A stretch of DNA of 64,000 nt, from positions 1,302,001-1,366,000 of the forward strand of contig NZ_CP043908.1 in NCBI RefSeq assembly GCF_008630935.1. Direction: 5' to 3'. The stretch comes from Thermodesulfobacterium sp. TA1 (GTDB lineage: Bacteria > Desulfobacterota > Thermodesulfobacteria > Thermodesulfobacteriales > Thermodesulfobacteriaceae). Shown in pieces: positions 29,073 through 46,707 of the stretch; position 1 is the first letter of the stretch, and each line of letters begins with the position of its first letter. Made by a program: the position numbers and the translations under genes. Under the pieces are notes generated by a model. That model saw only the letters and a list, made by a program, of their open reading frames with translations. It was not told the origin of the DNA and did not search any database.

Positions 29073-30443
29073 ATGAACAAAAAATACCTGATAGCTTTAA
29101 GTATATCTTCTGTGCTTTTTAGTTTTAGCTTAGGTATAAACCAAATAATTTCCTCTTCTGGAGAGCCAGGTATTAAACAGGCTCTTCCTTCGTGTGTTCA
29201 GCCTGGATGTCATAAGGTTTCAGCTCCTAATGAATTGTGGGGTAATCTTATTTCTATTTCCCAAAAAGCCGGCCTTCTTCAAATTGATACTGGTCAGACG
29301 ATAGATGTATTTTTTGATGAGAGCTCAAAGGTTTCATACTGGGAACAACCTTTAAACAAACTTAGCAAAGGCACCCCTATAAAGGTGGTTTACACTGAAA
29401 AAGAAGGTAAAAGATATGCTTCTATCATAAGTGTAAAACCTCCGGTAAAGGTTCCTCCAGAGAAAATCATAAGTTTAGAAGAGGTTAAAAAACTGGTAGA
29501 GCAAAAATCAGTGTTGATTATAGATGTTAGACCTCCTGCAAAGTATGCAGAAGGACATATTCCTGGAGCTATAAACCTTCCTTTAGCTCAATTTGGAAAA
29601 AAACTGCCTGAAATTTTAAAGGATAAACAGGCTTTAGCTGTAGTATACTGTGAAGGTCCGCGCTGAGCCTTAACTCCCGCAGCGGTCAGTGTGGCCGCTT
29701 CTCTTGGATATACCAACGTAAAAGGATTTGTAGACGGTTTTCCTGCCTGGAAAAAAGCAGGGTTACCTGTGGCAGTAGCTCCTCAACATATTCTTTCAGA
29801 AATAGCTCAAGGCATGTCTTTTGTTCTTATAGACCTAAGACCTAAAGCTTCTGCAGAAAAAGAACATATACCTGGAGCAGTAAACCTTCCTTTAGAAAAT
29901 CTTAAAAAAGCGAAAAAACTATTTCCCAAGCACAAGAACGCTCCCATCTTTTTATATGATGAAAACGACGAAAGGGCTTTATCAGCGATCAATATAATTA
30001 AAGCTTGGGGATATACTAATGTAGCCTATATTCCTGGTGGAATAGAAGCTTGGAAAAAAGCAGGAGGTAAGGTTGAAAAAGGAAAGCTACTTTCAAAGAT
30101 CAACTATATTCCTAAACCACGTCCTGGAACTTTTGCTGTAGAGGATTTTAAAAAATTAATTAAATCTCCTACCTTACCTGATAATTATTTTATTTTAGAT
30201 GTAAGAGAAGTTAACGAAGTCCAAGAAGGCAAGTTGCCTCATGCAGTAAACATTCCCTTAGGAGAACTCGAAAAAAGATTAAACGAACTTCCCAAAGACA
30301 AAACCATACTTATACATTGTACTACAGGTGTAAGGGCTGAAATGGCCTACAATATTTTAAAAAGAGCCGGGTTTAAAGCCTATTATCTCAATGCTAACGT
30401 AATTTTTGAAAACGGAAAATATAAAATAGAGGCTAAAGATTAG
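29073..30443 (+). CDS. Exported three-rhodanese-domain selenoprotein (in-frame UGA = Sec198)
   Basis: Read through the TGA at 29664-29666, the frame gives 456 residues. Residues 1-23 form a signal peptide. A CVQPGCH motif (CX4CH) follows at about 43. Three rhodanese domains come next. Domain 1 has its active-site loop split by the TGA (VVYC-EGP-R-U-ALTPAAVS), so Cys193 and Sec198 are five residues apart. Domain 2 has YDENDER where the Cys should be and is probably inactive. Domain 3 has HCTTGVRAEMA with an active Cys. The sequence after the TGA continues the rhodanese fold without a gap (AASLGYTNVKGF), and a hairpin sits 22 nt after it. It probably handles persulfide or selenide sulfur outside the cytoplasm. 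A nonsense mutation is the weaker alternative. Confidence 0.88.
29681..29699 (+). promoter_or_regulatory. SECIS-like hairpin for the rhodanese UGA
   Basis: AGCGGTCA (29681-29688) pairs with TGGCCGCT (29692-29699), 8 bp with one G-U, around loop GTG. The loop starts 22 nt after the TGA and has a G in its first position, as bacterial SECIS elements do. Confidence 0.82.
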
Positions 30444-32189: not shown

Positions 32190-33131
32190 ATGATAGAAAT
32201 CGCCATCATAGCCAGCCTTTTAATTGCCTTTGGAATAGGGTCAAACGATGCCTCTAATGCCCTTGGCATCTCCATCGGAGCCGGAGTAATAAAGTTTAAA
32301 AGGGCTGTTTTTATTTTTGGAATTTTAGTTTTTCTTGGAGTTTTGTTAAACGGTGATAAAGTAATGAAAACCGTAGGCAAAAATCTGGTTGAAACTACCC
32401 CTCTTACCCTAAGTCTTTCTTTGCTCTTGTCTGCTTTGTTGATACTTTTTTCAAACTGGAGAAAACTTCCTCTATCAACCCATCAAGTAATCATAGGAAG
32501 CCTTATCGGAAGCGGTTTAGCTTTAGAGCTTAATATAAATACTATTTCTTTAATAAAAGTTGTTTTGTCTTGGCTGATTTCACCAATAATAGCTTGTATA
32601 ATAAGTTTTTTTCTTTATAAGTTAGTGGTAAACTTCATGTCTAAATTGCCCTTTTTTAGATTAGAAAAGCTTTTAAGGTTTTTTCTACTGATAAGTTCTT
32701 CGCTTATTGCTTATAACACCGGAGCTAACGAACTGGCAACGGTCCTTGGTCCTGTGATGTATACGGGATTAAAAATCAATAAAATATTACTTTATTTTAT
32801 CGCCTCAAGCCTTATTTTCTTAGGGGCTGTTTTACTTAGTCATAGGGTTATAGAAACCGTAGGGAAAGGTATAACCTCTTTAGACCCTCTTTCAGGTTTT
32901 GTTGCCCAGTTTGGAGCAGGTTTATGCATTTTTTCTTTTACTTTGTTAGGAATGCCTATTTCAACCACCTACTGCATCATAGGAGGCATTACTGGAGTAG
33001 GACTTACTAAAGGTTTTCAAACCGTTAAAATAGACTTGATTAAAAAGATAGGAATAAACTGGATTTTCACCCTTACTATTTCGATAACCCTTACTTTTTT
33101 GTTGACTAAGTTAGCTTTAAATATTCTTTAA
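32190..33131 (+). CDS. pit: PiT-family inorganic phosphate transporter
   Basis: A 313-residue membrane protein with about ten helices. The duplicated PiT signature appears as GIGSNDASNALG near the N terminus and NTGANELATVLGPV in the middle. It imports phosphate with H+ or Na+. The pairing with DUF47 supports the assignment. Its 3' end overlaps the convergent hydrogenase protease gene by 26 nt. Confidence 0.92.
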   Translation: MIEIAIIASLLIAFGIGSNDASNALGISIGAGVIKFKRAVFIFGILVFLGVLLNGDKVMKTVGKNLVETTPLTLSLSLLLSALLILFSNWRKLPLSTHQVIIGSLIGSGLALELNINTISLIKVVLSWLISPIIACIISFFLYKLVVNFMSKLPFFRLEKLLRFFLLISSSLIAYNTGANELATVLGPVMYTGLKINKILLYFIASSLIFLGAVLLSHRVIETVGKGITSLDPLSGFVAQFGAGLCIFSFTLLGMPISTTYCIIGGITGVGLTKGFQTVKIDLIKKIGINWIFTLTISITLTFLLTKLALNIL

Positions 33132-33555
33132 TAAGTTGCACAACCTTAGGGATTGCTGCCTTAACCTTAAGACTACAATCTCTATCTAAAGTGTCTATGT
33201 CTTCTACCTCTACTCCGATGATTTTTATCTCTTTTGGCATCTCTTCTGGAAACACTTGATAACCAATCCTTATTACCTCAAAAACCGTAAGACTATGGGT
33301 GCCGCTGGCATAGACTTTTTCAAAGGTTTTAAGCGGGTCAAGCTCAACGATCGTCCCAGGCTCAACCCCAATCTTTACCCCATCTACTATAACCGCTAAG
33401 TCATAACCTAACATTACATCTATTACCTTCAAGTCTGTATTAAGCAGACAGACCGTATCTACTAAACCCTCTAATTGTTCGACTATTTTATAACCGACCC
33501 CGTCGTCACGAAAATTAGGATTACCTATCCCTATAACTATAGCCTTTTTCTGCAT
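33106..33555 (-). CDS. Hydrogenase maturation protease (HyaD/HycI/FrcD type)
   Basis: A 149-residue endopeptidase that removes the C-terminal peptide of [NiFe] hydrogenase large subunits after nickel insertion. GIGNPNFRDDGVGYK and the later SGTHSLTVFEVI, with the Ni-binding acidic and His residues, are visible. It lies just downstream of mvhA of the left cluster, beyond a terminator, and very likely processes both MvhA proteins after the His of DLCxACSTH. No Shine-Dalgarno is seen. A TATAAT at 33569-33564 ends 8 nt before the ATG. Confidence 0.9.
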   Translation of the reverse strand: MQKKAIVIGIGNPNFRDDGVGYKIVEQLEGLVDTVCLLNTDLKVIDVMLGYDLAVIVDGVKIGVEPGTIVELDPLKTFEKVYASGTHSLTVFEVIRIGYQVFPEEMPKEIKIIGVEVEDIDTLDRDCSLKVKAAIPKVVQLIKEYLKLT

Positions 33556-33638: not shown

Positions 33639-35102
33639 TTATTTAAAATTTCTCAAAGATTTTACCAACTCTCCATCCTTAGTATAAATGTCTATCTGCA
33701 CAGGCAGCTTACCAGGTAACGTATGGGTAGAACAGGCAAAACAAAGGTCATAAGGTCTATAAGCTATTTCTACTAAGTTGAGAATACCTTCGTCTACCTT
33801 TCCTTCCTTGATAAAATTCTCTGCCGCCCTCTTGATGGCTATGTTCATCGGCCCCTTGTTGTGGGTGGTTGCCACTATAATGTTAGCATCGGTTACTATA
33901 CCCTTATTGTCTGTCTTGTAATGATGGATAAGCGTTCCTCTTGCTGCCTCAACTATACCTACTCCCTCTCCTACCGGCTCCCCTAACTCCTGCCTCACAT
34001 CAGGTGCCGTAATACTCTCGTCTGATGCAAGCTCCTTAATCTTCTCCGCACAATGTAACAACTCTATCGCCCTCGCCCAATGATACCCTAATATATTGTG
34101 CACAGGCTTCCCTCCAAAAAACTCCAACATCTCCTCATATGCCTCCTGCGCTCCAGGTGTATCAAATCCATTACCTACGTTAAACCTCGCAAGCGGTCCC
34201 ACACTATACAAACTCGTACCCTCTCCGTCTACTATACCCTTCCACCCAAACTTCTTTATATACGGTGCCTTCTGATAACTCCATGGTAACGTCCTCTCCG
34301 CTATCCACTCCAAATACTCCTTACCTACAAACCTTCCTATCTCATTCCCCTTAGTGTCCACAAATACCTGCGTCCCGTCATAATACGTAACCTTGCCATT
34401 CCCATCTACCGTCCCTAAATAATTCGTTACCACCTTATACACATCACCCTTTATCAACTCCACATACTGAGGATTGCTTAACACCAAATCCTTAAACGCC
34501 TTAAGCGTAAACTTCCCCAACTCCACACACTCATCCGCATACTTAAGTATCTCCTGCCTCTCCTCCTCGGTTAACCTCTTGCTCCACCCACCTGGTATCG
34601 CCGCAACTGGATGGCTAGGTCTTCCTCCAAGAATTTCAAATATTCTAACAGCAGCAAACCTCTTCTTTAAAACATCCCTTCCTACATCTACACCTACCTT
34701 CATGATCAACCCAACCAAGTTCCTCTCAGCTGGTGAAGCCGTAGGACCACATACAAAATCAGGTAACCCCAAAGCATAGATTATCTCCATGTGGTCCTCT
34801 ACATAATGCGCATAGTAAAACAACTCCCTCAACTTCCTCGCCGTCTCCGTAGGCACTACCCCATATACCCCATCTGCGGCCTTCAACGAGGCCATAAAAT
34901 GTACACCCCTTCAGACGCCACAAATCGTACTTACCGTTCTTGGAACCTCTTCTATAGGCATACCTATCAAAAACTTCTCATATCCCATAAACTCTACTAC
35001 CTGTAAAAAGGCGTTGTCTACATTTCCCTTGTCATCCAAAAATATCGTTATCTTCCCATGACCCTCTAACCTTGTCATGGGGTTTATCTCTATCCTCTGC
35101 AT
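33639..35102 (-). CDS. mvhA: [NiFe]-hydrogenase large subunit MvhA, selenocysteine form (Sec64)
   Basis: Catalytic subunit of the methyl-viologen/F420-nonreducing (group 3c) hydrogenase that feeds Hdr. Read through the TGA at 34913-34911, the frame gives 487 residues. The N-terminal nickel motif is then RTVSTICGVU-RGVH with Cys61 and Sec64. The Cys twin to the right reads CGVCRAVH. The C-terminal motif is DLCFACSTH (Cys454, Cys457), followed by a 27-residue tail for the maturation protease. Sec64 sits at the second Cys of the N-terminal CxxC, a bridging Ni-Fe ligand in known hydrogenases. A hairpin starts its loop 22 nt after the UGA. Confidence 0.9.
34877..34894 (-). promoter_or_regulatory. 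SECIS-like hairpin in mvhA (Sec copy)
   Basis: On the minus strand TGGCCT (34894-34889) pairs with AGGCCG (34882-34877; last pair T-G) around loop CGTTGA. The loop begins 22 nt after the UGA at 34913-34911 and has G in its second position. Confidence 0.78.
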
Positions 35103-35137: not shown

Positions 35138-36094
35138 TTACTTACTAAGCCTCTTCCTTATCATAGACCCAGGTAAACTATATCTGTAAAATAACCTCAC
35201 CGGGTCCTCTATCCTATCCACCAAACCCTCATCCTCTAACGCACTCGCTATCGCACTTATAGCCCTCAATCCATAATCCCTTACCCCTGGTATCGGTCCT
35301 CCACATCCCCTACACGGTATGTTCACCTTCAAACAACTCGCCCCACAATCTCCCTGTGTAACCGGTCCCAAACATAAATAACCTGCCTCAAGCAAACACT
35401 CCTCCTCTACCAATCCACCCTCTATCACCCTCCTAACCTCACCTACCGGCTTCTTCTTCTCACCCCTTAACACCGGATTCCTCGCACATACCTCACACAC
35501 CGCATGACCCATCGTTATCCAACTACCCTTCGGCGGTAACTTACCCTCCAATAACGCCAACAACGCCGCCTTCACATGCTCATAATGCGGCGGACACCCT
35601 CCTATGTAATAATCTACCTCCACCACCTGGTCAAGCGTCCTCGCCTCCGTCAACTCAGGTAACTCCAACTCATACTTCCCATCCACCACATACCTCGGAC
35701 TCGGTAACTCCCCGCTCGGATTGTCTGTGCTAAACGTATCCCTGTACGCCTTCTCCAACAACTCCTGATTACTGTGCAAATTCACCAATCCCTTTATACC
35801 CCCTAAACTCGCACATATACCATACGCTATCAACACCTTACACTTAGCCCTCATCACCTTAGCCATGTGCTCATGTTCCTTATTCCTTATGTTACCCGTC
35901 AATAAACCCACATCTACAGACCCATCGGGTAATGCCTCAAAATCCTTATACTTAACATCAACCAGTGTCGGCGCAAAAAACACTATATCAACCGCACTAA
36001 CCACATCCACCAAAAAATCTGCTAAATCAACCAAACTTATATCACAACCTGCACATCCACCTGCCAGGTAATATGCTAACTTAGGCTTGCTCAT
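35138..36094 (-). CDS. mvhG: Hydrogenase small subunit MvhG (left copy)
   Basis: A 318-residue [NiFe] hydrogenase small subunit carrying three [4Fe-4S] clusters between MvhA and MvhD. GGCAGCDISLVDL gives the proximal-cluster CxxC, and further Cys lie in GGCPPHYEH, HAVCEVCARNP, CLLEAGYLCLGPVTQGDCG and IPCRGCGGP. It lacks a twin-arginine signal, so the enzyme is cytoplasmic. It differs from the right copy at two residues (Gly/Thr in EDEGLVD, Ser/Gly near the C terminus). It lies 3 nt after mvhD. Confidence 0.95.
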   Translation of the reverse strand: MSKPKLAYYLAGGCAGCDISLVDLADFLVDVVSAVDIVFFAPTLVDVKYKDFEALPDGSVDVGLLTGNIRNKEHEHMAKVMRAKCKVLIAYGICASLGGIKGLVNLHSNQELLEKAYRDTFSTDNPSGELPSPRYVVDGKYELELPELTEARTLDQVVEVDYYIGGCPPHYEHVKAALLALLEGKLPPKGSWITMGHAVCEVCARNPVLRGEKKKPVGEVRRVIEGGLVEEECLLEAGYLCLGPVTQGDCGASCLKVNIPCRGCGGPIPGVRDYGLRAISAIASALEDEGLVDRIEDPVRLFYRYSLPGSMIRKRLSK

Positions 36095-36097
36095 CTC

Positions 36098-36508
36098 CTA
36101 TACCCCCTTCATTGGATTTGGTCCTATTTCCCTTACCTTAGCATCCATCTCCGTTATTATGTCCGCAAACTTCTTACCCTCACTACCTGATATCCACTCA
36201 AGCCTAACCCTGTCTCCATCCACCCCCAACTCCTCTAACACCCTCTTCAAAAGCTTAAACCTCCTCAACGCCTTGTAATTACCTGACCGGTAATGACAAT
36301 CCCCTGGATGACAACCTCCAACCAAAACAGCATCAGCTCCTTTCACCAAGGCACTAACTATAAACTCAGGCTCTACCCTACCACTACAAGGAACCCTTAC
36401 TATATATGCTGTAGGTGGATAACTATATCTTAAACTACCTGCAAGGTCTGCTCCAGCATAAGTACACCAGTTACAGGCTATCACCACTATCTTTGGCTCC
36501 CAGCTCAT
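36098..36508 (-). CDS. mvhD: MvhD-family iron-sulfur protein (left copy)
   Basis: A 136-residue [2Fe-2S] protein that connects the hydrogenase with HdrA. The motifs ACNWCTYAGADLAGS and VGGCHPGDCHYRSGN hold the cluster Cys. The protein is identical to the right copy. The stop of hdrB and the start of mvhD are almost contiguous. Confidence 0.94.
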   Translation of the reverse strand: MSWEPKIVVIACNWCTYAGADLAGSLRYSYPPTAYIVRVPCSGRVEPEFIVSALVKGADAVLVGGCHPGDCHYRSGNYKALRRFKLLKRVLEELGVDGDRVRLEWISGSEGKKFADIITEMDAKVREIGPNPMKGV

Positions 36509-36509
36509 A

Positions 36510-37409
36510 TTACTTACCTCCTCTTATTTTTTCTACCACCTTATCTATAGGCACCTCCGCCAAACCAACCGCCTTCTCAGGCTCCGCCCCCAACGCCAAC
36601 GCCACCAACTGCGCCACATGCACCGCAGGCACCTCAAAATCTATTACCCCCTCCTTCTTCATCTGCGCCTGGTCGTTGTCAAACCTCAATAAACAACTAC
36701 TACACCCAGTCACAAATAACTCTGGATTGATCTCCTCTATCATCTTCTCGGCCTTCCTCTTAAACAAACTCCATGACTTGTCCCTTGCCAAACTACCCAA
36801 CGCACCCATCCCACAACAATCTGTCATCATACTATACCAAGGTGCAACCCCTCCTAACGCCTCACATATCTCACCCATCCTCTTAGGCTGAAATGTATTC
36901 TCATCATTCGCCGGATACGCCTTGCTCGGCCATAAATTATGACACCCTACCTGCACCCCACATACCATACCATTCAACGGATACTTAACCGCCTTCTTCA
37001 ACTCCTCTATCCCTATAAAATCATATAAATAATTGTATATGTTATAAACCTTAACCTTCCCCTCATACCTCATCCCCACACTACCTAATATCTCGTTCAC
37101 CTTCTCCTTAATCTCCGGATGCTTCTCCATGTGATACCTAGCCTCATTCAAACTACCATAACAACTCCCACATCCTGTCACCATCACCTCTAACCCCTTA
37201 CCCTCTGCTATCGCCATGTTCCACGCAGAACCCACACACCAACCAACCAAATCAACCGATGGCATCGTACCAAACGCAGGACAACACGTCGCACCCTCTA
37301 AATCCACTACCTCCACACCTAATTCCTTCAATAAATACCTCATCGAATACTCTATATCCGGCCTCCTCAACGGTATGTTACACCCTAAAAATAATCCTAC
37401 CCTCTTCAT
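36510..37409 (-). CDS. hdrB: Heterodisulfide reductase-like subunit HdrB (left copy)
   Basis: A 299-residue protein with two CCG domains that bind the noncubane [4Fe-4S] clusters at which the disulfide is split in methanogens. Cys blocks are LGCNIPL, GATCCPAFG, VTGCGSCYG in the first half and GCHNLWP, MTDCCGMGA, VTGCSSCLL in the second. The bacterial substrate is unknown, as CoM-S-S-CoB is not expected here. DsrC or another disulfide is possible. Identical to the right copy. Confidence 0.94.
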   Translation of the reverse strand: MKRVGLFLGCNIPLRRPDIEYSMRYLLKELGVEVVDLEGATCCPAFGTMPSVDLVGWCVGSAWNMAIAEGKGLEVMVTGCGSCYGSLNEARYHMEKHPEIKEKVNEILGSVGMRYEGKVKVYNIYNYLYDFIGIEELKKAVKYPLNGMVCGVQVGCHNLWPSKAYPANDENTFQPKRMGEICEALGGVAPWYSMMTDCCGMGALGSLARDKSWSLFKRKAEKMIEEINPELFVTGCSSCLLRFDNDQAQMKKEGVIDFEVPAVHVAQLVALALGAEPEKAVGLAEVPIDKVVEKIRGGK

Positions 37410-37427
37410 CTCTTCCCTCCTTTTTCT

Positions 37428-37970
37428 TTAATCAAGTGGAAACGGTGCTACCTCTGCTAACGCAGTCTGCTTCATTACCTCCTGAAACTTCTTCCTCATC
37501 TCCTCATTACCTATCACCGTAGGTGGATACTCCGGCAATCCCACCTTCTTCCTCCTCTCCTCAAATCCCTTAACCACCACCGCATGACCCCTCTCATAAT
37601 AATTCCTCAAACCATCTATCGTATTAGACGGCATCGCATACTCCCTAAAACACACCCTCCTTATCGCCTGTATCAACTCATATGGCTTTATGTCCATCGG
37701 ACATATCTCCACACACCTGTTGCAACTCTGACATCCCCATACCGATGAATCCTCCATAAATATCTCCCTCAACCCTAATATGCTCGCATGCACTATCCTC
37801 TTAATAAAATACTCTAAACCCGCTAACGCCATCGGACATGTAGATGCACACCTCCCACACTGTATACACTCCCTCAACTCCTTCACAGGCATACCCATCT
37901 GCTCTAACTCATCCCAAAACTCCTTAGAAAACTCCTCGTCTAACTTTATAACGTTTACTTCCTTCTCCAT
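37428..37970 (-). CDS. hdrC: Heterodisulfide reductase-like subunit HdrC (left copy)
   Basis: A 180-residue protein with two [4Fe-4S] motifs (CIQCGRCASTCP and CQSCNRCVEICP) that pass electrons from HdrA to HdrB. The protein is identical in both copies, and the DNA differs by at least one silent base (near 37786). It lies 29 nt after hdrA. Confidence 0.94.
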   Translation of the reverse strand: MEKEVNVIKLDEEFSKEFWDELEQMGMPVKELRECIQCGRCASTCPMALAGLEYFIKRIVHASILGLREIFMEDSSVWGCQSCNRCVEICPMDIKPYELIQAIRRVCFREYAMPSNTIDGLRNYYERGHAVVVKGFEERRKKVGLPEYPPTVIGNEEMRKKFQEVMKQTALAEVAPFPLD

Positions 37971-37999: not shown

Positions 38000-40000
38000 T
38001 TAATCAACCGTTATAGCCTTAATCTGTTCTATTATCTGTTCAGTAGTAAAGCCATGGAAAATAATGGCCTTAGACGGACAGGCAGCCGCACAAGTCCCAC
38101 AACCAGCACAAAGGGCTGGCTCAACCTTGGCCTTGTAAACCCCATTATATTCCTCAAGCACTATCGCATTGTATGGACAAAGCTGTACACAAACCCCACA
38201 ACTGCTACACTTATCCCTTATCACCTCGGCAGAAATCGCCTCAAACCTAATCTTACCCGGTAATACCAAAGCAGCCGCCGCAGAAGAAGCAGCCCTTGAC
38301 TGAGCGATAGATTCAGGAATGTCCTTAGGTCCTTGCACACATCCAGCAATGAATACACCTTTAGCAGAAGTCTCTACTGGATAGAGCTTGGTATGAACCT
38401 CTCTGATAAACCCTTCCCTACCACAACTAGCACTAAAAAGTCTTCCCAATTTTTCTGTATCTGGTCCTGGCTCTATCGCCGTAGCCAACACTACCATGTC
38501 TACGTCTACCTCTACAGGACTGCATAGGTCGTTATCATAAGCCCTTACCCTTAACTTGCCATCAGGTTTTACGTCAACCGCTGAAACCCTTCCTCCCCTT
38601 ATTACCTTGGCACCAAGCTTTTTGGTGTATACATAAAATTCTTCAAAATCTTTTCCTGCGGTCCTAACGTCTATAAAAAATAGATAAAGGTCTATGTCAG
38701 GATACTTTTCTTTTAAGATTCTTGCATGTTTCATGATATACATACAACAGACCTTAGAACAATAGCTATGATACCTTTCGTCTCTACTTCCTACACAGGC
38801 AATAAAAGCCATCTTCTTTGGCTTTTGTCCATCAGACAATCTTTTAAGTTGTCCCTCAGTAGGTCCGGTAGGAGAAAGGATACGTTCAAACTCCATGGCC
38901 GTTACTACGTCAGGACAGTTGGGAGAGTATTCTTTAAAATGATGTTTTTCCATTGCTTTAAACCCGGTAGCTAAAATCACAGACCCTACCTTTACCTTGA
39001 TAAACTCATCCTTGTCCTCATAATTAATCGCACCTGCCGGACATCCCTCTATGTTCTTGTTAGGTATCCCCTTCTGACATATCTGACAGGCAGTCTTACC
39101 CGTCTTTCTTAATGTCTTAAAATACAAACAATTCTCCGCATCTATCACCGCCTTCTTAGGTACTGCCTGAGGAAATTGAATGTAAATAGCCGGTCTCTTA
39201 TCTAACCCAAGGTTAAATTCATTAGGAGCCTTTGAAGGACAAATGTTCATACAATGACCACAACCAGTACACTTATCCCAGTCTACATATCTCGCTTTTT
39301 TCTTGATGGTAACCTCAAAGTTTCCTACATAACCTTTAACATCTTCTACCTCAGCATAGGTGATAAGTTCAATGTTAGGATGCTGGGCGACCTCGCCCAT
39401 CTTGGGGGTAAGTATTCAAGCCGAGCAGTCCATAGTCGGGAAGGTCTTATCAAGCATGGCCATGTTACCGCCGATAGAAGGCCTCTTCTCCACTAAATAA
39501 ACCTTTAATCCCATGTTGGCTAAATCTAAAGCTGCAAACATACCTGCAATTCCGCCACCAACTACCAATACAGACTTTTCCATAGGTTCGAAACGGTCTT
39601 CTAAAGCCTCAGCTAACCTTACTTTAGCAACAGCACTTTTAATGATTCTCTTGGCTTTCTCAGTAGCTTCTTTAATCTTTCCCCAATGAGCCCAAGTATT
39701 TTGGTCTCTAATATTAGCTATCTCACAAAAATATTTGTTTAAACCAACTGACTCAACCGCTGCCCTAAAAATAGGTTCATGGGTCCTTGGTGTACAAGCA
39801 GCTACCACTACCCTGTCAACCAAACCCTCTTGAATGTCCTTTTTAATCAACTCCTGCCCAGGGTCAGAACACATAAAGAAATAGTCCCTAACCACCGTAA
39901 CATCAGGTAAAGTTTTAGCAAACTCTACTAATTCTTGGATATTAACCCCACCTTTGATGTTCTCCCCACAATGACATAGATAAACCCCGACCTTTGGCAT
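38000..40000 (-). CDS. hdrA: HdrA flavoprotein, selenocysteine form (Sec195)
   Basis: The electron-bifurcating FAD subunit. Reading through the TGA at 39418-39416 gives 666 residues. The order is an N-terminal Cys region (CHCGENI), Rossmann FAD site VLVVGGGIAG at about 145, TMDC-SA-U-ILTP (Cys192, Sec195), ferredoxin motif CTGCGHCMNICP, a thioredoxin-reductase-like region, and two C-terminal ferredoxin motifs (CSSCGVCVQLCP, CAGCGTCAAACP). The right copy has Cys195. HdrA selenoproteins with Sec are known in methanogens. A hairpin with its loop 22 nt after the UGA supports recoding. It is the first gene of the left operon. Confidence 0.92.
39384..39399 (-). promoter_or_regulatory. SECIS-like hairpin in hdrA (Sec copy)
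   Basis: On the minus strand TGGGCG (39399-39394) pairs with CGCCCA (39389-39384), 6 bp, loop AGGT, beginning 22 nt after the UGA. In the Cys copy the same positions read TGGTGG and TGCTCA, which do not pair. Confidence 0.82.
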
Positions 40001-40335: not shown

Positions 40336-41808
40336 TTATTTTAAATTTTCAAAGTTTCTCAAAGATTTTACCAATTCTCCATCCTTAGTATAAATGTCTA
40401 TCTGCACAGGCAGCTTACCAGGTAACGTATGGGTAGAACAGGCAAGGCAAAGGTCATAAGGTCTATAAGCTATTTCTACTAAGTTGAGAATACCTTCGTC
40501 TACCTTCCCTTCCTTGATAAAATTCTCTGCCGCCCTCTTGATGGCTATATTAATAGGTCCTTTATTGTGGGTGGTTGCCACTATAATGTTAGCATCGGTT
40601 ACTATACCCTTATTGTCTGTCTTGTAATGATGGATAAGCGTTCCTCTTACTGCCTCGATTATACCTACACCTTCTCCTACCGGCTCCCCTAATTCCTGCC
40701 TCACATCAGGTGCCGTAATACTCTCGTCTGACGCAAGCTCCTTAATCTTCTCCGCACAATGTAACAACTCTATCGCCCTAGCCCAGTGATAACCTAATAT
40801 ATTGTGCACAGGCTTCCCTCCAAAAAACTCCAACATCTCCTCATATGCCTCCTGCGCTCCAGGTGTATCAAATCCATTACCTACGTTAAACCTCGCAAGC
40901 GGTCCCACACTATACAAACTCGTACCCTCTCCGTCTACTATACCCTTCCACCCAAACTTCTTTATATACGGTGCCTTCTGATAACTCCATGGTAACGTCC
41001 TCTCCGCTATCCAGTCCAAATACTCCTTCCCTACAAACCTTCCTATCTCATTCCCCTTAGTGTCCACAAATACCTGCGTCCCGTCATAATACGTAACCTT
41101 GCCATTCCCATCTACCGTCCCTAAATAATTCGTTACCACCTTATACACATCACCCTTTATCAACTCCACATACTGAGGATTGCTTAACACCAAATCCTTA
41201 AACGCCTTAAGCGTAAACTTACCTAACTCCACACACTCATCCGCATACTTAAGTATCTCCTGCCTCTCCTCCTCGGTTAACCTCTTGCTCCACCCACCTG
41301 GTATCGCCGCAACTGGATGAGTTGGTCTCCCTCCAAGGATTTCCATAATTCTAACCGCAGCAAACCTTTTCTTTAAAACATCCCTTCCTACATCTACACC
41401 TACCTTCATGATCAACCCAACCAAGTTCCTCTCAGCTGGTGAAGCCGTAGGACCACATACAAAATCAGGTAACCCCAAAGCATATATTATCTCCATGTGG
41501 TCCTCTACATAATGCGCATAGTAAAACAACTCCCTCAACTTCCTCGCCGTCTCCGTAGGCAATACCCCATATACCCCATCTGCGGCCTTCAACGAGGCCA
41601 TAAAATGTACAGCCCTACAAACGCCACAAACCGTACTTACCGTTCTTGGAACCTCTTCTATAGGCATACCTATTAAAAACTTCTCATATCCCATAAACTC
41701 TACTACCTGCCAAAAGGCGTTGTCTACATTTCCCTTGTCATCCAAAAATATCGTTATCTTCCCATGACCCTCTAACCTTGTCATGGGGTTTATCTCTATC
41801 CTCTGCAT
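40336..41808 (-). CDS. mvhA: [NiFe]-hydrogenase large subunit MvhA, cysteine form
   Basis: A 490-residue uninterrupted twin of the left MvhA. N-terminal motif TVCGVCRAVH (Cys61, Cys64), C-terminal DLCLACSTH (Cys454, Cys457). It keeps the hairpin that acts as SECIS in the twin gene, though no UGA is present. The last residues (FENLK) differ from the left copy. Subunit of H2-oxidising group 3c hydrogenase coupled to HdrABC. Confidence 0.96.
   Translation of the reverse strand: MQRIEINPMTRLEGHGKITIFLDDKGNVDNAFWQVVEFMGYEKFLIGMPIEEVPRTVSTVCGVCRAVHFMASLKAADGVYGVLPTETARKLRELFYYAHYVEDHMEIIYALGLPDFVCGPTASPAERNLVGLIMKVGVDVGRDVLKKRFAAVRIMEILGGRPTHPVAAIPGGWSKRLTEEERQEILKYADECVELGKFTLKAFKDLVLSNPQYVELIKGDVYKVVTNYLGTVDGNGKVTYYDGTQVFVDTKGNEIGRFVGKEYLDWIAERTLPWSYQKAPYIKKFGWKGIVDGEGTSLYSVGPLARFNVGNGFDTPGAQEAYEEMLEFFGGKPVHNILGYHWARAIELLHCAEKIKELASDESITAPDVRQELGEPVGEGVGIIEAVRGTLIHHYKTDNKGIVTDANIIVATTHNKGPINIAIKRAAENFIKEGKVDEGILNLVEIAYRPYDLCLACSTHTLPGKLPVQIDIYTKDGELVKSLRNFENLK
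41583..41600 (-). promoter_or_regulatory. Retained SECIS-like hairpin in the Cys mvhA
   Basis: TGGCCT, loop CGTTGA, AGGCCG, exactly as in the Sec copy and 22 nt after the Cys64 codon TGT at 41619-41617. Likely a relic, or conserved only because the protein sequence is conserved. Confidence 0.6.
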
Positions 41809-41843: not shown

Positions 41844-42800
41844 TTACTTACCAAGCCTCTTCCTTATCATAGACCCAGGCAAACTATACCTGTAAAATAA
41901 CCTCACCGGGTCCTCTATCCTATCCACTAAAGTCTCATCCTCTAACGCACTCGCTATCGCACTTATAGCCCTCAATCCATAATCCCTTACCCCTGGTATC
42001 GGTCCTCCACATCCCCTACACGGTATGTTCACCTTCAAACAACTCGCCCCACAATCTCCCTGTGTAACCGGTCCCAAACATAAATAACCTGCCTCAAGCA
42101 AACACTCCTCCTCTACCAATCCACCCTCTATCACCCTCCTAACCTCACCTACCGGCTTCTTCTTCTCACCCCTTAACACCGGATTCCTCGCACATACCTC
42201 ACACACCGCATGACCCATCGTTATCCAACTACCCTTCGGCGGTAACTTACCCTCCAATAACGCCAACAACGCCGCCTTCACATGCTCATAATGCGGCGGA
42301 CACCCTCCTATGTAATAATCTACCTCCACCACCTGGTCAAGCGTCCTCGCCTCCGTCAACTCAGGTAACTCCAACTCATACTTCCCATCCACCACATACC
42401 TCGGACTCGGTAACTCCCCGCTCGGATTGTCTGTGCTAAACGTATCCCTGTACGCCTTCTCCAACAACTCCTGATTACTGTGCAAATTCACCAATCCCTT
42501 TATACCCCCTAAACTCGCACATATACCATACGCTATCAACACCTTACACTTAGCCCTCATCACCTTAGCCATGTGCTCATGTTCCTTATTCCTTATGTTA
42601 CCCGTCAATAAACCCACATCTACAGACCCATCGGGTAATGCCTCAAAATCCTTATACTTAACATCAACCAGTGTCGGCGCAAAAAACACTATATCAACCG
42701 CACTAACCACATCCACCAAAAAATCTGCTAAATCAACCAAACTTATATCACAACCTGCACATCCACCTGCCAGGTAATATGCTAACTTAGGCTTGCTCAT
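41844..42800 (-). CDS. mvhG: Hydrogenase small subunit MvhG (right copy)
   Basis: 318 residues, same Cys pattern as the left copy (GGCAGCDIS, CPPHYEH, CEVCARNP, CGASC, CRGCGGP) for three [4Fe-4S] clusters. Only two residues differ from the left copy (EDETLVD and KRLGK). It follows mvhD by 3 nt. Confidence 0.95.
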   Translation of the reverse strand: MSKPKLAYYLAGGCAGCDISLVDLADFLVDVVSAVDIVFFAPTLVDVKYKDFEALPDGSVDVGLLTGNIRNKEHEHMAKVMRAKCKVLIAYGICASLGGIKGLVNLHSNQELLEKAYRDTFSTDNPSGELPSPRYVVDGKYELELPELTEARTLDQVVEVDYYIGGCPPHYEHVKAALLALLEGKLPPKGSWITMGHAVCEVCARNPVLRGEKKKPVGEVRRVIEGGLVEEECLLEAGYLCLGPVTQGDCGASCLKVNIPCRGCGGPIPGVRDYGLRAISAIASALEDETLVDRIEDPVRLFYRYSLPGSMIRKRLGK

Positions 42801-42803
42801 CTC

Positions 42804-43214
42804 CTATACCCCCTTCATTGGATTTGGTCCTATTTCCCTTACCTTAGCATCCATCTCCGTTATTATGTCCGCAAACTTCTTACCCTCACTACCTGATATC
42901 CACTCAAGCCTAACCCTGTCTCCATCCACCCCCAACTCCTCTAACACCCTCTTCAAAAGCTTAAACCTCCTCAACGCCTTGTAATTACCTGACCGGTAAT
43001 GACAATCCCCTGGATGACAACCTCCAACCAAAACAGCATCAGCTCCTTTCACCAAGGCACTAACTATAAACTCAGGCTCTACCCTACCACTACAAGGAAC
43101 CCTTACTATATATGCTGTAGGTGGATAACTATATCTTAAACTACCTGCAAGGTCTGCTCCAGCATAAGTACACCAGTTACAGGCTATCACCACTATCTTT
43201 GGCTCCCAGCTCAT
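42804..43214 (-). CDS. mvhD: MvhD-family iron-sulfur protein (right copy)
   Basis: 136 residues, identical to the left copy. A [2Fe-2S] adaptor between MvhAG and HdrA, with CNWC and the GGCHPGDCHY motif. It is separated from the hdrB stop by 1 nt. Confidence 0.94.
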   Translation of the reverse strand: MSWEPKIVVIACNWCTYAGADLAGSLRYSYPPTAYIVRVPCSGRVEPEFIVSALVKGADAVLVGGCHPGDCHYRSGNYKALRRFKLLKRVLEELGVDGDRVRLEWISGSEGKKFADIITEMDAKVREIGPNPMKGV

Positions 43215-43215
43215 A

Positions 43216-44115
43216 TTACTTACCTCCTCTTATTTTTTCTACCACCTTATCTATAGGCACCTCCGCCAAACCAACCGCCTTCTCAGGCTCCGCCCCCAAC
43301 GCCAACGCCACCAACTGCGCCACATGCACCGCAGGCACCTCAAAATCTATTACCCCCTCCTTCTTCATCTGCGCCTGGTCGTTGTCAAACCTCAATAAAC
43401 AACTACTACACCCAGTCACAAATAACTCTGGATTGATCTCCTCTATCATCTTCTCGGCCTTCCTCTTAAACAAACTCCATGACTTGTCCCTTGCCAAACT
43501 ACCCAACGCACCCATCCCACAACAATCTGTCATCATACTATACCAAGGTGCAACCCCTCCTAACGCCTCACATATCTCACCCATCCTCTTAGGCTGAAAT
43601 GTATTCTCATCATTCGCCGGATACGCCTTGCTCGGCCATAAATTATGACACCCTACCTGCACCCCACATACCATACCATTCAACGGATACTTAACCGCCT
43701 TCTTCAACTCCTCTATCCCTATAAAATCATATAAATAATTGTATATGTTATAAACCTTAACCTTCCCCTCATACCTCATCCCCACACTACCTAATATCTC
43801 GTTCACCTTCTCCTTAATCTCCGGATGCTTCTCCATGTGATACCTAGCCTCATTCAAACTACCATAACAACTCCCACATCCTGTCACCATCACCTCTAAC
43901 CCCTTACCCTCTGCTATCGCCATGTTCCACGCAGAACCCACACACCAACCAACCAAATCAACCGATGGCATCGTACCAAACGCAGGACAACACGTCGCAC
44001 CCTCTAAATCCACTACCTCCACACCTAATTCCTTCAATAAATACCTCATCGAATACTCTATATCCGGCCTCCTCAACGGTATGTTACACCCTAAAAATAA
44101 TCCTACCCTCTTCAT
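43216..44115 (-). CDS. hdrB: HdrB-like subunit (right copy)
   Basis: 299 residues, identical to the left copy, with the two CCG-type Cys domains of heterodisulfide reductase catalytic subunits. The physiological disulfide is unknown. Confidence 0.94.
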   Translation of the reverse strand: MKRVGLFLGCNIPLRRPDIEYSMRYLLKELGVEVVDLEGATCCPAFGTMPSVDLVGWCVGSAWNMAIAEGKGLEVMVTGCGSCYGSLNEARYHMEKHPEIKEKVNEILGSVGMRYEGKVKVYNIYNYLYDFIGIEELKKAVKYPLNGMVCGVQVGCHNLWPSKAYPANDENTFQPKRMGEICEALGGVAPWYSMMTDCCGMGALGSLARDKSWSLFKRKAEKMIEEINPELFVTGCSSCLLRFDNDQAQMKKEGVIDFEVPAVHVAQLVALALGAEPEKAVGLAEVPIDKVVEKIRGGK

Positions 44116-44133
44116 CTCTTCCCTCCTTTTTCT

Positions 44134-44676
44134 TTAATCAAGTGGAAACGGTGCTACCTCTGCTAACGCAGTCTGCTTCATTACCTCCTGAAACTTCTTC
44201 CTCATCTCCTCATTACCTATCACCGTAGGTGGATACTCCGGCAATCCCACCTTCTTCCTCCTCTCCTCAAATCCCTTAACCACCACCGCATGACCCCTCT
44301 CATAATAATTCCTCAAACCATCTATCGTATTAGACGGCATCGCATACTCCCTAAAACACACCCTCCTTATCGCCTGTATCAACTCATATGGCTTTATGTC
44401 CATCGGACATATCTCCACACACCTGTTGCAACTCTGACATCCCCATACCGATGAATCCTCCATAAATATCTCCCTCAACCCTAATATACTCGCATGCACT
44501 ATCCTCTTAATAAAATACTCTAAACCCGCTAACGCCATCGGACATGTAGATGCACACCTCCCACACTGTATACACTCCCTCAACTCCTTCACAGGCATAC
44601 CCATCTGCTCTAACTCATCCCAAAACTCCTTAGAAAACTCCTCGTCTAACTTTATAACGTTTACTTCCTTCTCCAT
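44134..44676 (-). CDS. hdrC: HdrC-like subunit (right copy)
   Basis: 180 residues with two [4Fe-4S] motifs, identical in protein to the left copy. It lies 18 nt after the right hdrA. Confidence 0.94.
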   Translation of the reverse strand: MEKEVNVIKLDEEFSKEFWDELEQMGMPVKELRECIQCGRCASTCPMALAGLEYFIKRIVHASILGLREIFMEDSSVWGCQSCNRCVEICPMDIKPYELIQAIRRVCFREYAMPSNTIDGLRNYYERGHAVVVKGFEERRKKVGLPEYPPTVIGNEEMRKKFQEVMKQTALAEVAPFPLD

Positions 44677-44694
44677 TACCCTACCCCCTTTGGT

Positions 44695-46707
44695 TTATAA
44701 ATTTGGATAATCCTCAACTATAGCCTCTATTTGAGCAAGTACTTGTTCAGTAGAGAAACCATGGAAGATGATGGCCTTAGACGGACAAGCAGCCGCACAA
44801 GTTCCACAACCAGCACAAAGGGCTGGCTCAACCTTAGCCTTGTAAACCCCATTATATTCCTCAAGCACTATCGCATTGTATGGACAAAGCTGTACACAAA
44901 CCCCACAACTGCTACACTTATCCCTTATCACCTCCGCCGCAATAGCCTCAAACTTAATCTTACCTGGGATAACCGTTGCGGCGGCTGAAGCGGCTGCTGC
45001 TTTAGCCTGAGAAACAGATTCAGGTATATCCTTAGGACCTTGTACACATCCGCATACAAAAACACCTTTAGAGGCTGTATCTACTGGATAGAGCTTGGTA
45101 TGAACCTCTCTGATAAACCCTTCCCTACCACAACTAGCACTAAAAAGTCTTCCCAATTTTTCTGTATCTGGTCCTGGCTCTATCGCCGTAGCCAACACTA
45201 CCATGTCTACGTCTACCTCTACAGGACTGCATAGGTCGTTATCATAAGCCCTTACCCTTAACTTGCCATCAGGTTTTACGTCAACCGCTGAAACCCTTCC
45301 TCCCCTTATTACCTTGGCACCAAGCTGTTTAGTAGAAACATAAAACTCTTCAAAATCTTTTCCTGCGGTCCTAACGTCTATAAAAAATAGATAAAGGTCT
45401 ATGTCAGGATACTTTTCTTTTAAAATCTTGGCATGTTTAAACATATACATACAACAAACTTTAGAACAATAAGAATGATGTCTTTCGTCTCTACTTCCTA
45501 CACAAGAAATAAAGGCTATTTTTTTAGGCTTCGTTCCGTCAGATAATCTCTTAAGCTGACCTTCTGTAGGTCCAGTGGCTGAAATAAGTCTCTCAAACTC
45601 AAGGGCAGTAAGAACGTCTGGACAATTAGGAGAGTATTCTTTAAAATGATGTTTTTCCATTGCTTTAAACCCGGTAGCTAAAATCACAGACCCTACCTTT
45701 ACCTTGATAAACTCATCCTTGTCCTCATAATTAATCGCACCTGCCGGACATCCCTCTATGTTCTTGTTAGGTATCCCCTTCTGACATATCTGACAGGCAG
45801 TCTTACCCGTCTTTCTTAATGTCTTAAAATACAAACAATTCTCCGCATCTATCACCGCCTTCTTAGGTACTGCCTGAGGAAATTCTATATAAATGGCTGG
45901 TCTCTTATCTAACCCAAGGTTAAACTCATTAGGAGCCTTTGAAGGACAAATATTCATACAATGACCACAACCAGTACACTTATCCCAGTCTACATATCTC
46001 GCTTTTTTCTTGATGGTAACCTCAAAGTTTCCTACATAACCTTTAACATCTTCTACCTCAGCATAGGTGATAAGTTCAATGTTAGGATGCTGAGCAACCT
46101 CCACCATCTTAGGAGTCAAAATACAAGCAGAACAGTCCATCGTAGGAAAAGTTTTATCAAGTTTAGCCATAACCCCACCGATAGAAGGTTGTTTCTCAAC
46201 TAAATAAACCTTTAGTCCTATGGTTGCCAGGTCTAAAGCTGCAAAAATACCTGCAATTCCACCTCCTACAACCAATACAGACTTTTCAGCATCTTGGAAA
46301 CGGTCCTCTAAAGGCTCTGCCAAACGAACTTTAGCCACTGCACTGGCAAGCAACCTTTTGGCTTTTTTAGTAGCTCCTTCTTTATCGTGCCAATGAGCCC
46401 AACTATCCTGATCTCTAATATTAGCCATTTCACAAAAATATTTGTTTAAACCAGTTGATTCAACCGCTGCCCTAAAAATAGGTTCATGGGTCCTTGGTGT
46501 ACAAGCAGCTACCACCACCCTGTCAACCAAACCCTCTTGAATGTCCTTTTTAATCAACTCCTGCCCAGGGTCAGAACACATAAACTGATAATCTCTTACT
46601 ACCACCACATCAGACAAAGTTTTAGCAAACTCCACCACCTCTTGAATATTAACCGCCCCCTTGATATTCTCCCCACAATGACATACATATACACCTACCT
46701 TAGGCAT
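44695..46707 (-). CDS. hdrA: HdrA flavoprotein, cysteine form
   Basis: 670 residues with the same domain order as the left copy, Cys192 and Cys195 in TMDCSACILTP, three ferredoxin-type motifs and the VLVVGGGIAGI FAD site. The SECIS-like hairpin is absent. The C terminus ends in EDYPNL, four residues longer than the Sec form. The N-terminal 200 residues and a central patch (about 350-440) differ from the left copy, whereas other parts match. A GGAGGGG Shine-Dalgarno precedes the ATG. Confidence 0.95.
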   Translation of the reverse strand: MPKVGVYVCHCGENIKGAVNIQEVVEFAKTLSDVVVVRDYQFMCSDPGQELIKKDIQEGLVDRVVVAACTPRTHEPIFRAAVESTGLNKYFCEMANIRDQDSWAHWHDKEGATKKAKRLLASAVAKVRLAEPLEDRFQDAEKSVLVVGGGIAGIFAALDLATIGLKVYLVEKQPSIGGVMAKLDKTFPTMDCSACILTPKMVEVAQHPNIELITYAEVEDVKGYVGNFEVTIKKKARYVDWDKCTGCGHCMNICPSKAPNEFNLGLDKRPAIYIEFPQAVPKKAVIDAENCLYFKTLRKTGKTACQICQKGIPNKNIEGCPAGAINYEDKDEFIKVKVGSVILATGFKAMEKHHFKEYSPNCPDVLTALEFERLISATGPTEGQLKRLSDGTKPKKIAFISCVGSRDERHHSYCSKVCCMYMFKHAKILKEKYPDIDLYLFFIDVRTAGKDFEEFYVSTKQLGAKVIRGGRVSAVDVKPDGKLRVRAYDNDLCSPVEVDVDMVVLATAIEPGPDTEKLGRLFSASCGREGFIREVHTKLYPVDTASKGVFVCGCVQGPKDIPESVSQAKAAAASAAATVIPGKIKFEAIAAEVIRDKCSSCGVCVQLCPYNAIVLEEYNGVYKAKVEPALCAGCGTCAAACPSKAIIFHGFSTEQVLAQIEAIVEDYPNL

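Follow-up and report, generated by a model that had tools for sequence, protein, structure and literature searches.

A predicted selenocysteine at the N-terminal Ni-Fe bridging position of Mvh-type [NiFe] hydrogenases

Background

In the [NiFe] hydrogenase family each CxxC motif of the large subunit provides two ligands, its first cysteine being a terminal Ni ligand and its second a bridge between Ni and Fe. The classical [NiFeSe] enzymes possess selenocysteine (Sec) in place of the first C-terminal cysteine. Reviews list the FrhA and MvhA/VhuU selenoproteins with a UxxC motif only (PMC13188914; PMC9312934), and the Sec of this motif in [NiFeSe] enzymes is described as a terminal Ni ligand next to the proton-transfer glutamate (PMC13188914; PMC11212049; PMC9312934). 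Bacterial FrhA selenoproteins are counted in the accessible part of PMC1794560, which names no Sec position for them; those of Syntrophobacter fumaroxidans were suspected to be further cases of the N-terminal type. In Escherichia coli Hyd-1 each of the four Ni cysteines has been artificially replaced by Sec (Evans et al. 2021, as related in the accessible part of PMC11212049). The open literature that was searched, with incomplete coverage and few subscription papers, yielded no description of a natural N-terminal or bridging Sec in hydrogenases; the statement of a first-pass annotation of the DNA studied here, that no natural enzyme with Sec at this site had been described, hence holds within the open literature searched and not for all literature.

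Results and discussion

An Mvh-type large subunit with an in-frame UGA codon

The window, i.e. the whole 64-kb stretch of DNA that was analysed, corresponds to positions 1302001-1366000 of a single-contig 1.83-Mb genome, from a group with Thermodesulfobacteriaceae (SKYB108) and Thermodesulfatator among its named relatives, and contains tandem hdr-mvh operons (Table 1). The mvhA gene of one of these begins with an ATG preceded by a AGGAGGGG-type ribosome site, and the sole in-frame stop of its frame is the TGA of codon 64, which is TGT in the 98% identical tandem twin. The twins differ in 42 codons, the last of which is the stop point of the shorter copy. The ligand motifs of the predicted Sec form, CGV(U)RGVH and DLCFACSTH, lie in columns that are invariant as Cys or Sec, and residues 454 and 457 are cysteines in both twins. 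Thus, the first-pass claims that the frame is broken only at the codon where the twin has Cys64, and that both C-terminal ligands remain cysteines, were borne out. Among the window ORFs of at least 170 codons the stops are TAA in 40, TAG in 5 and TGA in 3, and in two of the three TGA-ending ORFs, those of hdrA and a rhodanese gene, the TGA is itself a Sec-like codon.

Residue 64 aligns with the second cysteine of the N-terminal CxxC in several solved structures, including 5ODC, 5XF9 and 7T2R, and the MvhA model recovered the solved MvhA of 5ODC as the first-ranked Foldseek hit, with a TM-score of 0.94 to the target and highly significant homology (Table 1). These matches support the earlier placement of Sec64 at the N-terminal bridging position; the role of this residue as a Ni-Fe bridging ligand is taken by homology from the known structures of the family, and should accordingly be read as a prediction. 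The AlphaFold model is uncertain at residues 453-466, where pLDDT falls below 50. The ligand motifs, the homology and fold, and the upstream genes of the operon (mvhG, mvhD, hdrB, hdrC and hdrA) all correspond to those of a group 3c, Mvh-type large subunit. The NCBIfam VhuA equivalog model NF041785 aligned over its full length with 379 bits, below its cut-off of 800, indicating a homologue and not the methanogen equivalog.

Table 1. Coordinates of the hydrogenase operons and of the selenocysteine machinery (window positions, except those prefixed C1)
Feature	Position	Strand	Remarks
mvhA, predicted Sec form, group 3c-like [NiFe] hydrogenase large subunit	33639..35102	minus	487 codons; 5ODC chain F E=2.1e-106; Pfam NiFeSe_Hases 97.8 bits
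UGA codon 64, predicted Sec, second Cys of N-terminal CxxC (CGVU)	34911..34913	minus	Cys or TGA throughout homologous alignment column
Cys61 codon, first Cys of N-terminal CxxC, terminal Ni ligand by homology	34920..34922	minus	
Cys454 codon, first Cys of C-terminal CxxC (Sec position in classical [NiFeSe] enzymes)	33741..33743	minus	
Cys457 codon, second Cys of C-terminal CxxC, other bridging ligand	33732..33734	minus	
SECIS-like hairpin	34878..34893	minus	stem 34893-34889 with 34882-34878; loop 34888-34883 (CGUUGA)
Hydrogenase maturation protease (HycI/HupD type)	33106..33555	minus	adjoins Sec mvhA downstream
mvhG, hydrogenase small subunit	35138..36094	minus	
mvhD (FlpD family), Cys66 form	36098..36508	minus	
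hdrB	36510..37409	minus	
hdrC	37428..37970	minus	
hdrA of Sec operon, predicted selenoprotein	38000..40000	minus	UGA codon 195 at 39416-39418; hairpin TGGGCG-AGGT-CGCCCA downstream
mvhA twin, Cys64 form	40336..41808	minus	same hairpin sequence retained
Remaining twin operon: mvhG, mvhD, hdrB, hdrC, hdrA with Cys195	41844..46707	minus	
SelA	C1:1228314-1229660		
SelB	C1:405797-407692		
SelD	C1:1092579-1093511		own TGA inside
tRNA-Sec	C1:1738057-1738145		anticodon TCA

Further UGA codons and sequence exchange in the neighborhood

The hdrA gene of the same operon possesses a TGA at codon 195, as against Cys195 in the twin hdrA; its motif is DCSAU, and the AGGU-loop hairpin that follows the TGA has been lost in the Cys twin. 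Elsewhere in the window a three-domain rhodanese-like protein (29073-30443, plus strand) is interrupted by a TGA (29664-29666) within YCEGPRU, followed by a strong hairpin, and is likely to be a further selenoprotein. The tandem operons share about 2.55 kb of identical sequence (35226-37781 versus 41932-44487), a sign of recent conversion or duplication; HdrA, compared between them, is a mosaic in which identical patches alternate with divergent ones. Residue 66 of MvhD is Sec in most genus mates (L047, L048 (G013) and L049-L053, both G013 copies included). The two copies in the window's genome have Cys instead; there conversion seems to have swapped MvhD and left MvhA64 distinct. Two assemblies, G013 (L047, 1-895) and G001 (L012), break within mvhA, probably because of the tandem repeat, and the copy number there is uncertain.

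Recurrence of UGA at codon 64

Searches seeded with Mvh alignments covered a collection of genome contigs and some 1,700 genomes, and among the matches listed 241 distinct homologues had readable ligand motifs. TGA replaces the second cysteine of the N-terminal CxxC in 33 of these (the remaining 208 having Cys in that column) and the first cysteine of the C-terminal CxxC in 32, 176 having neither; these counts are not prevalences, because they were taken among the matches listed and the seed alignment included UGA genes. No gene among the 241 listed carries both, and a search of these homologues for Sec at the two remaining ligand positions gave no case. One partial gene beyond the 33 (L316) also has the N-terminal TGA. 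The C-terminal TGA of many Desulfobacterota MvhA genes was considered as support for Sec64 and rejected, as it marks the classical site; likewise, the TGA directly after the C-terminal CxxCxxH histidine of three MvhA-like genes (L174, L177 and L180) was taken as a true stop, and their products seem, from this sequence, to need no C-terminal cleavage on maturation.

The genes with the N-terminal TGA reach down to about 50% protein identity and occur in at least five phyla (five or six). They comprise members of the window's genus and another Desulfobacterota lineage (L152), Thermodesulfovibrio and other Nitrospirota, Chloroflexota (Dehalococcoidia), Bacillota including Desulfotruncus alcoholivorax, and Krumholzibacteriota/Latescibacterota (G423 and G424; two NCBI phyla, found in one phylum search). 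Within the genus, codon 64 is TGA in G013 (97% identity) and G008 (82%), and Cys in four other genomes. The alignment of UGA-containing mvhA homologues that the first-pass annotation had suggested as a check thus recovers TGA at the homologous codon, and therefore its proposed refutation by a sequencing error turning TGT or TGC into TGA, and likewise a pseudogene, are excluded in practice, the same codon being TGA in 33 genes from independent assemblies, accompanied by a hairpin specific to the UGA genes.

A hairpin downstream of the UGA

A SECIS-type hairpin, of the form GGCCU-CGUUGA-AGGCC, is present within the ORF just downstream of UGA64, with a 17-nt spacer, a stem of 5 bp and a loop of 6 nt that begins 23 nt past the UGA. 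The hairpin of the first-pass annotation is thus real, but its loop had been placed one position too early, at 22 nt. The stem is short, four of its five pairs never vary, and it overlies the codons of a conserved A-S-x-K-A peptide, so that it is in part fixed by coding; moreover, the Cys twin also has it, and its presence alone is no proof of recoding. The contrast between Sec and Cys genes rests on a position-specific stem test combined with resampling of synonymous codons from each gene's own usage. By this measure the hairpin is found in 30 of the 33 UGA genes against 3.0 expected, and in 27 of the 176 Cys/Cys genes against 14 expected. The underlying codon choices are similarly skewed: Ala71 is GCC in 30/33 UGA genes versus 63/167 Cys genes, and Lys74 is AAG in 32/33 versus 101/175. 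Among genes that have the A-S-x-K-A motif, the loop includes a GU in 30 of 32 UGA genes versus 28 of 94 Cys/Cys genes.

The hairpin was recovered in Thermodesulfovibrio, Dehalococcoidia, Bacillota and Krumholzibacteriota/Latescibacterota. The Thermodesulfovibrio stem has A-U and not G-C as its outer pair, giving 7 compensatory cells and no broken ones. Three UGA genes are missing the canonical stem: L267 and L269 show a two-base shift that keeps the loop in nearly the same place, and L286 has a different hairpin. The folding energy of the whole stretch downstream of the UGA hardly distinguishes Sec genes from Cys genes (-13.1 versus -11.6), which made the stem test and the resampling necessary. 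An Rfam scan of the 64-kb window returned tRNAs only and no SECIS family.

Selenocysteine machinery, selection and the tree of MvhA

The first-pass annotation had asked for selA, selB, selC and selD in the genome and named their lack as a ground for refutation; all four were found (Table 1). More generally, SelA or SelB was found in all 13 UGA genomes tested, and 4 of 13 Cys-only genomes were without both. Between UGA homologues the sequence downstream of the UGA has a dN/dS of 0.04-0.11, indicating purifying selection and contradicting a truncated 63-residue product only, the last of the refutations that had been put forward.

The C-terminal-Sec genes (32 rows; L182-L199 and L202-L213) belong essentially to one group, a large Desulfobacterota clade with 2 changes on the tree, and the N-terminal Sec state requires 14 changes, at least 10 of them on well-supported branches. 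This would imply either that Sec64 was gained and lost often or that an old Sec was lost many times. Certain Cys genes (L000C, L048, L215 and L296) keep an intact hairpin with the GU loop, a pattern suggestive of recent switches from Sec to Cys or, in the tandem twins, of conversion. In a comparison of G000 and G013, two species that each have a Sec and a Cys copy, some 120 variable sites track the genome, a signature of conversion, and only six track the type of copy (codon 33 has two of them, codons 60, 64, 66 and 455 one apiece). Thus, most of the gene has been homogenised by conversion and the Sec/Cys site has not, which argues that both forms are being maintained.

Alternative readings of UGA64

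UGA64 is very probably decoded as Sec, to judge from these sequence features, giving a full-length Mvh-type large subunit with Se at the N-terminal bridging position alongside a Cys twin isoenzyme. The frame would likewise be kept if the UGA were read through as another amino acid, by misreading as Cys or Trp or under a reassigned code. This is very improbable, given that an hslV-like gene in the window ends normally at TGA, that the genome encodes a dedicated Sec system, tRNA-Sec(TCA) included, that in-frame UGA codons occur, besides this one, at sites known for Sec (in HdrA at 195, in the MvhD of relatives at 66, in SelD and in a rhodanese) and that the hairpin is conserved.

A nonsense mutation or sequencing error, with the pseudogene held open by recent conversion from the twin, might be entertained on account of the near-identical Cys copy in tandem and the evident conversion between the copies. 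However, the recurrence of TGA at one codon in 33 genes of at least five phyla, the lack of a second in-frame stop, the specificity of the hairpin to UGA genes, the low dN/dS and the survival of the UGA, despite conversion, in both of two sister species make it extremely improbable. To the same slight degree one might credit termination at the UGA and production of a 418-aa hydrogenase by reinitiation at Met70, for which there is a mechanical ORF from the ATG at 34895 that a gene caller would report; against this, such a product would be without the entire N-terminus and the two Ni ligands located there, many UGA homologues have Thr or Leu in place of Met70, and the codons before the UGA keep the conserved N-terminus of the family. 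The least credible reading, a classical [NiFeSe] hydrogenase whose Sec had been misplaced by the earlier reading, could appeal to the recorded Sec FrhA/MvhA families (PMC13188914; accessible part of PMC1794560) and to the C-terminal UxxC MvhA of many Desulfobacterota, but is contradicted by the all-Cys DLCFACSTH motif, by the position of the UGA at residue 64, by the C-terminal-Sec genes forming a separate clade, and by the lack of any gene with both among the 241 listed.

Proposed mechanism and functional implications

For the preferred reading, decoding of UGA64 as Sec, the following course may be envisaged. SelB and tRNA-Sec would insert Sec at residue 64, aided by the hairpin 17 nt downstream, to give a group 3c-like large subunit with MvhG, MvhD and a selenocysteine HdrA as its partners. 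Se would replace S at the N-terminal Ni-Fe bridging cysteine (CGVU), the C-terminal ligands remaining Cys, and the Hyp machinery together with the adjacent protease would mature the subunit around a Ni-Fe site with a Se bridge. Electrons from H2 would then pass through MvhG and MvhD to HdrA (Sec195) and HdrBC for bifurcation. The all-Cys MvhA and HdrA of the twin operon are probably isoenzymes for selenium-poor conditions, like Vhu/Vhc of Methanococcus voltae. Sec insertion at residue 64, coordination of Se to both Ni and Fe, and an advantage of Se are what we infer from the sequence patterns. The most likely advantage would be a bridging chalcogen less readily lost to irreversible oxygenation, or a retuned Ni-Fe site. 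In some [NiFe] enzymes the oxidised states include oxygenated bridging cysteines (PMC7324405; PMC12596923), which makes easier reduction of oxidised Se a plausible gain, the alternative being retuned electronics of the Ni-Fe site.

In the described natural Se hydrogenases that were found, Se is always at one terminal Ni ligand, and models of its benefit are built on that position near the proton-relay glutamate. It is quite probable that the CxxU genes define a second natural class of Se-containing [NiFe] hydrogenases, in which Se bridges Ni and Fe, which spans at least five phyla, excludes C-terminal Sec and has undergone repeated Sec/Cys switches. If so, a second ligand, chemically unlike the first, is also a place where Se is favoured by selection, and in far more than a single case, and the selenoprotein tables that list MvhA as UxxC only are incomplete; many CxxU mvhA genes have probably been annotated wrongly, as truncated or broken. 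The paired Sec/Cys isoenzymes of one genome, together with lineages that are all-Sec, such as Thermodesulfovibrio, offer a direct way of testing this.

Comparison with known systems

The closest solved relative, MvhA of the HdrABC-MvhAGD complex of Methanothermococcus thermolithotrophicus (5ODC), has the same fold, about 40% identity, the same partners (hdrABC-mvhDGA) and the same four ligand positions; all four ligands are Cys in 5ODC, whereas the second N-terminal ligand is predicted to be Sec here. VhuA/VhuU, FrhA and the periplasmic HysAB [NiFeSe] enzymes likewise use Sec for one Ni ligand, and their Sec and Cys isoenzymes can coexist, but their Sec is the first C-terminal cysteine (UxxC) and not, as predicted here, the bridging N-terminal one (CxxU). 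The same difference separates the C-terminal-Sec MvhA/FrhA of Desulfobacterota (e.g. L182-L199), which belong to the same enzyme family and have the same type of operon, yet form a distinct clade with UxxC and an intact N-terminal CGIC. Within the same operons Sec also occurs in the neighboring subunits, at HdrA195 here and at MvhD66 in relatives, both of them known Sec sites, while MvhA64 is absent from the selenoprotein tables compared. Finally, one of the engineered E. coli Hyd-1 variants would carry its Sec at the corresponding bridging cysteine of the N-terminal motif. That enzyme is artificial and of group 1, whereas the protein predicted here would be its natural counterpart, with its own SECIS-like hairpin and under selection.
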